Assembly (NCBI RefSeq): GCF_001428255.1
Contig: NZ_LMRW01000023.1
Coordinates: 124,309-188,308, forward strand
Origin: Agromyces sp. Soil535
Lineage (GTDB): Bacteria; Actinomycetota; Actinomycetes; Actinomycetales; Microbacteriaceae
DNA: 64,000 bases
Direction of reading: 5' to 3'
Shown: positions 45,921 to 52,054 of the stretch, piece by piece
Numbering within the stretch: the stretch's first letter is position 1
Layout: the number at the start of each line of letters is the position of its first letter
The notes under the pieces: model-generated
The model's input: only the letters and a program-made list of their open reading frames with translations
What the model was told of the DNA's origin: nothing
Databases searched by the model: none
Position numbers and translations under genes: made by a program

Positions 45921-46078
45921 GAAGGCAGGACCCGTTCTGGTCCGCAGGTGCGACGCGCTCGCGCCGATCATGCGGACTTGACATGGGTCCTCATAGTGTC
46001 CGAAAACGACCGGGCCGGGGGTGCGAGCCGAGTGTCCGAGAGGGCACGCGCCGCGCGACGGTAGGAGAGGTTCAACGA

Positions 46079-47500
<1,422 letters not shown>

Positions 47501-47507
47501 GCCGCAC

Positions 47508-48764
47508 GTGCGCTACGCGCCGGCGATCCTCGTCGGCAGGCTCACCCGATTCGCCGCCCGGCTGCGCAAGCCCGGCGGCGGATCGGCCGTTCCGGGCCTC
47601 GTCGTCAACCGCATCGCCCCCGGCTACATGAAGCGCACCCTGTCGGGATTCCCGCAGGGTCTCGTGGTCGTGTCGGGGTCGAGCGGCAAGTCGACGACCA
47701 CGAAGATGCTCGTCGCGATCCTTCGTGCCCATAGCGTCGACGTGTTCACGAACCCATCGACCGCGAACATCAGCCAGGGGCTCACGTCTGCACTCCTGGA
47801 ACGGGCGGACTGGCAGGGCCGCGTGCCCGGCGAGGTCGCGGTGCTCGAGATGGACGAGGGCCACGGCGCCCTCGTCATGCAGGGCGTCGACGCGCGAGTC
47901 GTGGCGCTGACGAACGTGATGGTCGACCAGATCGACCGGTTCCACGACTCCGAGATGGTGGCCGGCATGCTCGGCCGCATCGCCGCCCGTGCACACGAGG
48001 CGATCGTCGTGAACGCGGATGACGCGTACCTCGAGCGCCTCGCTGCCAAGGCCGGTCCGGATGTCGCGGTCCATCGGTTCGGCGTGTCCGCCGAGGTGCT
48101 CGCTCGCTCGCCGCGCGGACTCGGGTACACGGAGACGAGCACGACGCGCCTCGGGGAGGGCTCCGGCATCGTCGTGGCGTCGGTGGACGGTGCGTCCGCC
48201 CTGCTGCACGATGGCGCGGCATCCGTCGACGTCCGCCTGCCTGCACGCGGCACCCACTACGCGGTGGACGCCGCGGCCGCCTACGCCACCGCGAAGGCGG
48301 TGCTGGGGGAGCGGTTCTCGCCGGTGACGGCGGCCGACGCGCTGAGCGCCATCCCCGCCGTCTTCGGCCGGGGGGAGCGCGTGCGCGTGCGCGGGCAGGA
48401 GGTGGAGTTCGTGCTCGTGCAGAACCCCGCCAGCTATCAGCTGAACGTCGACAGCATCGAGCCCGGCACCGAGCAGATCCTCTTCGCCATCGGATCCGAC
48501 GTCCGCGATCCTTCGTACTTCTGGCCGACGGATGCCTCGTCGCTCGGCCGTGTGGCGATCGTGAGCGGATCCAAGGCGCCCGAGGCGGCACTCATGCTCG
48601 CCTACGACGGCGTGGAGATCGACCGCGTCGAGCCCGACCTCGGCCGCGCGCTCGACGAATTCCTCGCTGCGCCCGAACCGAAGCACGGCCTGAAGACGAT
48701 CGTCTTCTCGGCCGACGCGATGCGCCGTACGCGCGCCCACCTCGGACTCACGGGAGCGGAATGA
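47508..48764 (+). CDS. murT: MurT-like Mur ligase-family protein lacking the zinc ribbon
   Basis: 418 aa, GTG start. Mur ligase central domain with phosphate loop VVVSGSSGKSTTTKM (G60-K61-S62), NPSTANISQG, EVAVLEMDEGH and NVMVDQIDRFHD, then the C-terminal domain with NPASYQLN. MurT elsewhere carries a Cys4 zinc ribbon in the middle domain; here the equivalent region (about residues 195-255) has none, and the whole protein contains no cysteine. MurT normally works with GatD to amidate the alpha-carboxyl of D-Glu in lipid II. The gatD-like gene follows with a 4-bp overlap. See findings for a proposed altered role. Confidence 0.88.
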   Translation: MRYAPAILVGRLTRFAARLRKPGGGSAVPGLVVNRIAPGYMKRTLSGFPQGLVVVSGSSGKSTTTKMLVAILRAHSVDVFTNPSTANISQGLTSALLERADWQGRVPGEVAVLEMDEGHGALVMQGVDARVVALTNVMVDQIDRFHDSEMVAGMLGRIAARAHEAIVVNADDAYLERLAAKAGPDVAVHRFGVSAEVLARSPRGLGYTETSTTRLGEGSGIVVASVDGASALLHDGAASVDVRLPARGTHYAVDAAAAYATAKAVLGERFSPVTAADALSAIPAVFGRGERVRVRGQEVEFVLVQNPASYQLNVDSIEPGTEQILFAIGSDVRDPSYFWPTDASSLGRVAIVSGSKAPEAALMLAYDGVEIDRVEPDLGRALDEFLAAPEPKHGLKTIVFSADAMRRTRAHLGLTGAE

Positions 48765-49504
48765 CCCTGACGATCGTGACGCTCCTGCCCGGCCTGCAGA
48801 ACACGAACGGCGACGCCGAGAATGCGACCGTGCTCGTCAGGCGGGCCCAGTGGGCGGGCCTCGACGCACGCGTGATCGCGGTCGACTCCCGCGACGACCT
48901 GCCCGAGCGCGTCGACGCCGTCGTGCTCGGCTCGGGCAGCGACTCCTCGCTCGAGGCGAGTCGCGACGCCCTGCTGACGATGCACGACGAGCTCCGCGTG
49001 TGGGGCACCGAGGGCATCCCGATCCTCGCGGTGGGCACCGGCTGGGAGCTGCTGAGCTGGGGCATCGAGCGCGCCGACGGCTCGAGCCTCGAGGGCCTCG
49101 GCGTCCTCCCGGGTCGTGCCGTGCCGCGGGGGGCCAGGGTCACGGGCGACCTCGTGGTGGCCTCGTCCCGGTTCGGGCTGCTCGTCGGTTTCGAGAACCA
49201 CGCGCGCGACTATGTCGGCGCCGAGGGTTCGCCGCTCGGGCGCGTGCGCTCCGGGAGCGGCAACGGGCGCGACGGGGGCCAGGAGGGCGTCGTCATGGGC
49301 GCCGTCATCGGCACACACCTGCACGGCCCGGTGCTCGCGAAGAACCCGGCGTTCGCCGATCAGCTGCTCGGCATGATGGCCCAGCGCTCGGGGCTCGAGT
49401 ACGCGCCCGGCGAGCGGGCCGCGCTCGTCGACGGATACGCGGCGGCCGCCCGCGATGCCCAGCTGGGCGCGGCGCGGGCGGCGGCATCCGTCGACGACGC
49501 CTGA
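48761..49504 (+). CDS. gatD: GatD-like glutamine amidotransferase without catalytic Cys
   Basis: 247 aa, overlapping murT by ATGA. Class I glutamine amidotransferase-like fold (CobB/CobQ type): TIVTLLPGLQNTNGDAENA, VVLGSGSDSSLEAS, and the nucleophile elbow ILAVGTGWELLSWG, where the family has V-C-G-G-x-Q. Cys is replaced by Gly92 and the Gln by Glu96; there is no Cys anywhere. The His region is kept (GTHLHGPVL, H186/H188), as is VGFENHARDY. It should not hydrolyse glutamine and may only stabilise or shape the MurT partner. Regular length; not a broken gene. Confidence 0.87.
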   Translation: MTLTIVTLLPGLQNTNGDAENATVLVRRAQWAGLDARVIAVDSRDDLPERVDAVVLGSGSDSSLEASRDALLTMHDELRVWGTEGIPILAVGTGWELLSWGIERADGSSLEGLGVLPGRAVPRGARVTGDLVVASSRFGLLVGFENHARDYVGAEGSPLGRVRSGSGNGRDGGQEGVVMGAVIGTHLHGPVLAKNPAFADQLLGMMAQRSGLEYAPGERAALVDGYAAAARDAQLGAARAAASVDDA

Positions 49505-49533: not shown

Positions 49534-49561
49534 GAACGCCCCGGTGATCACCGGGGCGTTC
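49534..49561. terminator. Bidirectional terminator after gatD
   Basis: GAACGCCCCGGTGA and its exact reverse complement are adjacent (28-nt perfect palindrome), between convergent gatD and the DUF7455 gene. Confidence 0.8.
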
Positions 49562-49579
49562 ATGTCGTATTCGATGGGG

Positions 49580-49816
49580 TCAGTCGCGACCGTCGACGAG
49601 GAGTCGGCTCGACTCGTCGTGCCAGCTGTGGGCGATCTGCGAGAGCTTCTCCTCGTGCTTGCGGCCGTGATGGGCGCAGAAGAGCAGTTCGCCGCTCGCG
49701 ACGACGACCCGGATGTACGCCTGGGCGCCGCATGCGTCGCAGCGGTCGAGCGCGGTGAGTTCATACGGGGTGTCGAGTTCGTCGACCGCACCGCTGGTGT
49801 CGGCGTGGTTCGTCAT
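49580..49816 (-). CDS. DUF7455-type small zinc-binding protein
   Basis: 78 aa from ATG 49816 with a strong GGAGGAGGAG RBS. Core ELTALDRCDACGAQAYIRV has a CxxC pair; a second half-site is FCAHHGRKH (Cys, His-His, His). A single small zinc-binding fold is likely. This short family is conserved beside primary sigma factor and topoisomerase genes in actinobacteria; function unknown. Divergent from parE. Confidence 0.85.
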   Translation of the reverse strand: MTNHADTSGAVDELDTPYELTALDRCDACGAQAYIRVVVASGELLFCAHHGRKHEEKLSQIAHSWHDESSRLLVDGRD

Positions 49817-49946
49817 GGCTCCTCCTCCTGGCTCACGCGTGATATTCCGTGCATCAATGAAAACACGGCACCGACGCACTTCGTTCCGTTTGGCGGGCAT
49901 TTCGCTCAGCGCGTAGCGCCTCGCACGCGGTGTCGTCCCGCGTCAG

Positions 49947-49952
49947 TAGGCT
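49947..49952 (+). promoter_or_regulatory. -10 element TAGGCT, near-leaderless start at 49961
   Basis: TAGGCT ends 8 nt before the parE GTG; no RBS is present. Confidence 0.5.
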
Positions 49953-49960
49953 TGTGCGAC

Positions 49961-52054
<2,094 letters not shown>

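Follow-up and report, generated by a model that had tools for sequence, protein, structure and literature searches.

Results

The murT-gatD gene pair of Agromyces sp. Soil535

The window, i.e., the whole stretch of 64,000 nucleotides of Agromyces sp. Soil535 DNA that was analyzed, harbors a murT-like gene followed by a gatD-like gene, with flanking genes that we take to be sigA and parE (Table 1). Neither reading frame is interrupted, the two share 4 bp, and the motifs named in a preceding sequence-only reading of this DNA are all present; its statement that neither protein contains a cysteine was also confirmed for the window.

Table 1. Features of the sigA-parE locus in the window. Cys-less pairs were sorted by MurT motifs into sets I (that of the window), IIa, IIb and IIc and a distant type III; type III and Cys-bearing loci were counted separately from the 88 Cys-less pairs of sets I and II. 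The numbering of Val139 and the matching of Asp334 with D349 were counted by hand in the alignment.
Feature	Coordinates	Strand	Remarks
Sigma factor gene (sigA), left border	45983..47500	+	ORF ends 7 bases before murT
murT-like gene	47508..48764	+	GTG start, 418 aa, 0 Cys; candidate bridge amino-acid ligase
MurT ATP-binding loop GSSGKSTTT	47676..47702	+	P-loop Lys in 88/88 Cys-less pairs of sets I/II and 49/49 Cys-bearing loci
MurT Val139 at the gate-Arg position (S. pneumoniae Arg135)	47922..47924	+	alignment with solved MurT
MurT Asp334 (S. aureus MurT D349)	48507..48509	+	retained in 87/88 Cys-less pairs of sets I/II
gatD-like gene	48761..49504	+	247 aa, 0 Cys; partner without the glutaminase nucleophile
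GatD Gly92, nucleophile position	49034..49036	+	aligned with S. aureus C94
GatD His188, catalytic His	49322..49324	+	retained in the clade of the window
parE/gyrB-like gene, right border	49544..52054	+	listed ORF; true start probably later

According to the Pfam search, the MurT-like protein contains Mur_ligase_M (51.5 bits, cut-off 24) and matches MurT_C with 23.7 bits, slightly under the cut-off of 25 (27 bits, above the cut-off, in the genome search), while the GatD-like protein contains GATase_3 (63.6 bits, cut-off 27). Both proteins score well under the cut-offs of the general NCBIfam equivalog models (MurT 77.9 bits with a cut-off of 800, GatD 80.3 with a cut-off of 400); with the Staphylococcus models the scores are 78 (cut-off 800) and 117.5 bits (cut-off 450). 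The best solved relatives by sequence are S. aureus MurT and GatD. The structural model of the GatD-like protein (pLDDT 92.2) matches S. aureus GatD with Z 33.2 and rmsd 1.9 over 242 residues. For the model of the MurT-like protein (pLDDT 89.4) the top structural matches are streptococcal MurT (Z 30.5, 29.5, and 29.4), the best being that of S. pyogenes with rmsd 3.2 over 349 residues; the match to S. aureus MurT has Z 27.2 and rmsd 6.9, and those to cyanophycin synthetase, a pMurE and folylpolyglutamate synthase have Z 28.6, 26.1, and 25.3, respectively. With the two genes next to each other and both folds present, the pair belongs to the MurT/GatD line.

Among the best 80 of at least 435 relatives, the nearest is the pair of Agromyces ramosus (91% identity for MurT and 87% for GatD over profile columns). 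In comparisons with six named Agromyces, dN/dS was 0.15–0.37 for gatD and 0.14–0.21 for murT, i.e., purifying selection acts on both genes in this genus. No second murT was found in the genome of Agromyces sp. Soil535, where a search to E 10 returned a single MurT_C match; of its eight GATase_3 matches, only that of the window's GatD reaches the end of the profile. In another genome of the same genus (L019) gatD was matched as two overlapping pieces, which points to a frameshift or a sequencing error.

Loss of the GatD nucleophile

Alignment with S. aureus GatD confirmed that Gly92 occupies the position of the nucleophilic cysteine and that Glu96 replaces the glutamine following it. As to the residues expected of a glutamine-dependent synthase, the GatD cysteine is absent from the window's pair, and the GatD histidine and the counterpart of MurT Asp349 are present (H188 and D334).

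In order to assess the spread of this loss, 144 loci from 144 genomes were read, 106 of them from Microbacteriaceae, the window's own family, and the remaining 38 spread over eight further families of the order; the family sample, chiefly a single locus for each of 73 genera with the best matches added, is not a random draw. The nucleophilic cysteine is absent in 95 of the 106 family loci, where the position is held by G (69), A (12), C (11), H (7), S (4), T (2), or N (1), whereas Cys, Gln, and His are all present in each of the 38 loci from the other families. The catalytic His is retained in 75 of the 106 family loci; among the GatD of named genomes it is found in 31/31 of clade I and 0/21 of clade IIb. 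The earlier suggestion that every cysteine has been lost is valid for the window but not in general: of the 95 family loci without the nucleophile, no more than 50 are free of cysteine throughout the domain ranges.

The named loci represent the best 80 of at least 435 relatives, and the titles of 73 of them give Microbacteriaceae or a genus of this family. The nucleophilic cysteine is missing from all 78 GatD that were read in this sample, a figure that does not give a rate, as the query was built of Cys-less members only and favored such pairs; in the other two loci (L165 and L232) GatD was not read, but a match to it exists in both genomes. With the window protein as the query, GatD matches were found in 105 of 297 genomes of the order and 289 of 398 genomes of the family; a profile of 16 family members matched 306 of these 398 and left 92 without a match. 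Two GatD matches at separate places were seen in the genomes of Leifsonia aquatica (L191), Amnibacterium setariae (L186), and a Schumannella MAG (L204). The loss of the cysteine is neither a chance event nor local to the window, and it affects most of Microbacteriaceae, a family known for its group B peptidoglycan.

The ligase side of MurT

The P-loop Lys, the Mg-binding Glu, and the hinge Arg expected of a Mur ligase are present in the window and in 88/88 Cys-less pairs of sets I and II. A different pattern is exhibited by the arginine corresponding to S. pneumoniae Arg135, which flanks the opening that faces GatD and lies at the proposed ammonia gate (PMC6085368): it is present in 49/49 Cys-bearing pairs and 7/7 type III pairs, in 1/88 Cys-less pairs of sets I and II, and in 0/80 named loci. 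MurT Lys321 is replaced by Gln in 45 of the 88 Cys-less pairs of sets I and II. The sequence-only reading also attached meaning to the missing Cys4 ribbon of MurT; this argument had to be dropped, since the ribbon is ordinarily absent in the order. Of the MurT from the 38 Cys-bearing pairs outside the family, 4 contain two CxxC motifs, 3 contain one and 31 none.

The sigA-parE locus and racemase genes

In most loci the pair is flanked by sigA and parE: the end of sigA is no more than 150 bp from murT in 74 of the 80 named loci, and a parE relative lies within the fetched stretch in 75 of them. In 27 of the 80, an alanine-racemase gene, found by similarity and in one case confirmed by Pfam, follows gatD at a distance of 5–1535 bp, on the same strand in 10 loci and on the opposite one in 17; it precedes parE in all 26 loci whose stretch includes parE. 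By set, these loci belong to IIb (10), IIa (9), and IIc (7), with one unassigned and none in set I (0/33). Examples of the racemase beside the pair are L206, L216, L208, L211, and L203, and often two matches lie close together.

A search with Ala_racemase_C in 28 named genomes gave 2–5 matches in 23/23 genomes of clade II and one in 5/5 genomes of clade I. The locus racemase is not the only alanine racemase of the cell: all 14 searched genomes that have it contain 2–5 matches, some of them always elsewhere in the genome. In eight of the nine such genomes with a known place of GatD, two racemase matches lie near the pair, and the nine clade II genomes without a locus racemase have 2–3 matches. 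The extra racemases of clade II would fit a D-amino acid substrate, while clade I is without them. An L-residue is possible for the clade of the window, as the type given for Agromyces aureus is B2gamma (D-Glu-L-Dab; PMC5217419).

Loci that depart from the pattern

As to the prediction that loss of the cysteine coincides with group B walls, Cys-less pairs occur in 0/38 loci of the order outside the family, but the family itself is partly Cys-bearing or unmatched, and type III pairs occur outside it. Cys-bearing pairs were found in 11 of the 106 family loci (L234–L244, 10 genera); neither sigA nor parE was seen beside them in the 6–13 kb read per locus, one pair (L244) being on a contig of only 6.1 kb.

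The phylum was sampled with 346 genomes, 174 of which had a GatD match, followed by a follow-up of weak scorers. Of the 41 loci from outside the family that were obtained in this way, 33 have the cysteine and 8 contain a Cys-less pair of type III (L306–L313); L304–L317 were picked because weak scores prevailed among their genomes, and some loci are gene pieces or come from genomes already among the 38. The eight type III pairs come from two families of the phylum, which rules out that loss of the cysteine is confined to Microbacteriaceae; these pairs may belong to A-type walls. Type III MurT are highly divergent and keep the CxxC pairs, and their GatD score 35–54 bits with the NCBIfam models. 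Within Microbacteriaceae, type III pairs (L246 and L248) are at the sigA-parE locus in both cases checked.

To characterize the family genomes without a GatD match, 24 genomes were chosen which were unmatched by the family profile or only in the search of the order. Some of them do carry divergent pairs: among the 23 sigA loci read, one (L271) has a murT-like gene. In 15 of the remaining 22 loci sigA is directly followed by a gene resembling F420 ligase (PF01996, 39.4 bits in the one scanned), accompanied by an ATP-grasp gene in 12 and by a racemase gene in 2; in 4 of the 22 loci parE adjoins sigA. These three kinds of genes were picked by short motifs, and one of each was confirmed by Pfam. 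The F420-ligase-like gene is possibly an unrelated replacement of the ligase. One such case (L249) lies within the window's own genus.

MurT subclades and the bridge amino acid

The MurT tree comprised 59 of the 80 named MurT and five Cys-bearing rows, and the ParE tree used for counting label changes and for AU tests comprised 46 of the 80 named loci; a further ParE tree, from which the supports given below are taken, contained one bad row (Arenivirga) and was without 7 of the 53 chosen loci. Wall labels were assigned by genus, with general background knowledge used for Curtobacterium, Rathayibacter, Plantibacter, Leifsonia, Pseudoclavibacter, Amnibacterium, Galbitalea, and the two named Microbacterium. 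The other labels come from published descriptions: DAB in Subtercola, L-DAB connected to D-Orn in Agreia, and D-Orn in Frondihabitans (PMC5945732, Table 3); D-Lys in Frigoribacterium, DAB in Cryobacterium and Glaciihabitans, and Lys and Orn in Salinibacterium (PMC7033078, Table 3); B2gamma with D- and L-DAB in Herbiconiux (PMC10011130); B2gamma in Clavibacter (PMC5882085); Dab in the peptidoglycan of Rhodoluna (PMC4156110); and D-Orn, L-Lys, or DAB in Microbacterium species (PMC10757982).

In the MurT tree, the IIb fork (SH-aLRT 100) unites Agreia, Frondihabitans, Frigoribacterium, Curtobacterium, Microbacterium, Salinibacterium sedimenticola, a MAG under the name Cryobacterium, and a record titled Planococcus. 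The latter (Planococcus sp. APC 4015, L226) has a Microbacterium-like locus and is probably mislabelled or contaminated. In the ParE tree, Agreia groups instead with Herbiconiux and Subtercola, at supports of 93 and 90. The MurT data reject Agreia, Subtercola, and Herbiconiux as one clade (AU p 3e-19), and the monophyly of IIb is rejected by the ParE data (p 0.014, the group having been chosen after inspection of the MurT tree). Labels change between DAB and Orn/Lys once on the MurT tree, and on the ParE tree twice with literature labels or four times when the background labels are added. These comparisons of trees support the view that MurT subclades follow the bridge diamino acid and not the species proxy ParE. 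Agreia is the telling case, because the usual notation puts L-DAB in the stem and D-Orn in the bridge; read in this way, its MurT subclade matches the bridge residue and not position 3. Statistical proof of the link was not reached, since independent contrasts are too few (one on supported branches, two or four on all) for a sign test to attain 0.05.

As to other features of the MurT tree, the DAB genera are split over two distant clades, I and IIa, and set IIc is not a single clade (Okibacterium, Mycetocola, Microcella, and Arenivirga fall with IIb, whereas Pontimonas is among those that group with IIa). A MAG titled Salinibacterium (L207) is in clade I, in spite of the Lys and Orn reported for that genus, and MAGs named Rhodoluna are split over two groups.

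Discussion

MurT/GatD elsewhere amidates the D-Glu of the cell wall with ammonia, and in group B peptidoglycan the cross-link goes via the alpha-carboxyl of D-Glu. From the residues lost and retained, the modelled folds, selection, the locus, the racemases, and the agreement between subclades and bridges we infer, with fair confidence, that a MurT/GatD amidotransferase has here become an amino-acid ligase, which joins the group B bridge residue to the D-Glu alpha-carboxyl. The proposed mechanism is as follows. Judging by the residues it has kept and by the activity of MurT elsewhere, the MurT-like protein would still activate the alpha-carboxyl of D-Glu with ATP, and, in place of ammonia, the residue that begins the interpeptide bridge would attack with its amino group. 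This residue would most likely be a diamino acid, namely DAB in clades I (that of the window) and IIa and D-Orn or D-Lys in clade IIb. In clade II the extra racemases may supply its D-form, while the DAB of clade I may be the L-form or made otherwise, as the clade I genomes searched have no extra racemase. The stem would then be cross-linkable between positions 2 and 4.

The GatD-like protein would not split glutamine and is probably retained as a structural partner, as the sequence-only reading proposed. The C94G and C94S substitutions in S. aureus GatD abolish the amidation of lipid II (PMC6113224), which fits a GatD without glutaminase activity. The partner role is plausible because MurT/GatD fed with ammonia, which it uses directly at pH 8.5, still needs GatD for amidation (PMC6085368).

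The same observation lends something to an alternative in which the pair still amidates D-Glu, using free ammonia, and GatD merely stabilizes MurT; the Asp of MurT, partner of the GatD His, is likewise retained in almost all Cys-less pairs of sets I and II (Table 1). However, the gate Arg is lost along with the Cys, and the agreement between the subclades and the bridge amino acid would be left unexplained. Moreover, the group B cross-link needs the very carboxyl that amidation would block. We consider this alternative improbable. Equally low chances are assigned by us to a D-Glu alpha-carboxyl ligase that adds glycine or another small residue first, the diamino acid being added by another enzyme. 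Gly adjoins D-Glu in some group B bridges. The peptidoglycan of Rhodoluna contains Gly, although the peptide reported is Gly-D-Glu (PMC4156110). Against this alternative, it is the diamino acid that the subclades track, and clade II has the extra racemases.

A ligase acting on an acceptor other than lipid II or its nucleotide precursor is a still poorer prospect: cyanophycin synthetase and folylpolyglutamate synthase, which share the fold, do act elsewhere, and the match to S. aureus MurT itself is modest, but the best structural matches are streptococcal MurT and the partner is a close match of GatD. That the pair is a decaying or purely regulatory relic of an amidase is very improbable, for the loss of the glutaminase site and the variety of residues now found there (G, A, S, T, N, and H) are outweighed by the intact frames, the ligase residues kept in 88/88 pairs, dN/dS well below 1 and the position of murT beside sigA in 74 of the 80 named loci. 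The bridge-ligase reading of the pair is supported in part, by the loss of the glutaminase site in most of a group B family, the single MurT_C match in the genome, the kept ligase residues, the lost gate Arg, the match between subclades and bridges and the clade II racemases; it is weakened by the Cys-bearing and type III exceptions, the family genomes without a GatD match, the small number of independent contrasts, the split of the DAB genera and of set IIc on the MurT tree, the opposite strand of many locus racemases and the lack of extra racemases in clade I.

Comparison with known systems agrees with descent from the lipid II isoglutaminyl synthase MurT/GatD (solved for S. aureus, S. pneumoniae, and S. 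pyogenes), with which the pair shares the gene arrangement, both folds, the ATP site, the GatD His (in clade I), the MurT Asp, and probably the acceptor carboxyl. Unlike this synthase, the pair has no nucleophile, gate Arg, or CxxC ribbon, is fixed beside sigA and falls far under the NCBIfam equivalog cut-offs. The Mur ligases MurC–F and the archaeal pseudomurein ligases pMurC and pMurE use this fold to ligate amino acids at the expense of ATP. The MurT-like protein scores 46.1 bits with the NCBIfam model of pMurE and 39.2 bits with that of pMurC, low against the curated cut-offs; MurC–F and pMurC/pMurE are not known to have a GatD-like partner. Type III pairs resemble the window's pair in having a GatD without Cys and a MurT partner and, in L246 and L248, in being at the same sigA-parE locus, but differ from it in the CxxC pairs and the gate Arg retained by their MurT.

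On a broader view, for which we would put the chances as even, the sigA-parE locus is a locus of group B bridge synthesis. The Cys-less pair, in clade II often with dedicated racemases, would be the missing 2–4 bridge ligase, with subclades specific to DAB, to D-Orn/D-Lys, and perhaps to Lys, and elsewhere in the family the F420-ligase-like gene, mostly together with the ATP-grasp gene, would perform the equivalent step.

The pair is a real and widespread variant of MurT/GatD and, most likely, the ligase that attaches the bridge amino acid in group B walls. Among the literature matches listed (most subscription journals and all bioRxiv preprints being outside the scope of the search), no enzyme is named for the step joining the bridge to the D-Glu alpha-carboxyl, and the pair of Microbacteriaceae is not named either. 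Group B walls are found among crop pathogens and among common soil and freshwater bacteria, and the present analysis offers candidates, with substrates predicted clade by clade, for the joining step of their bridges. If the proposed function is true, a glutamine amidotransferase would have become an amino-acid ligase through loss of its glutaminase activity, with the dead subunit retained.
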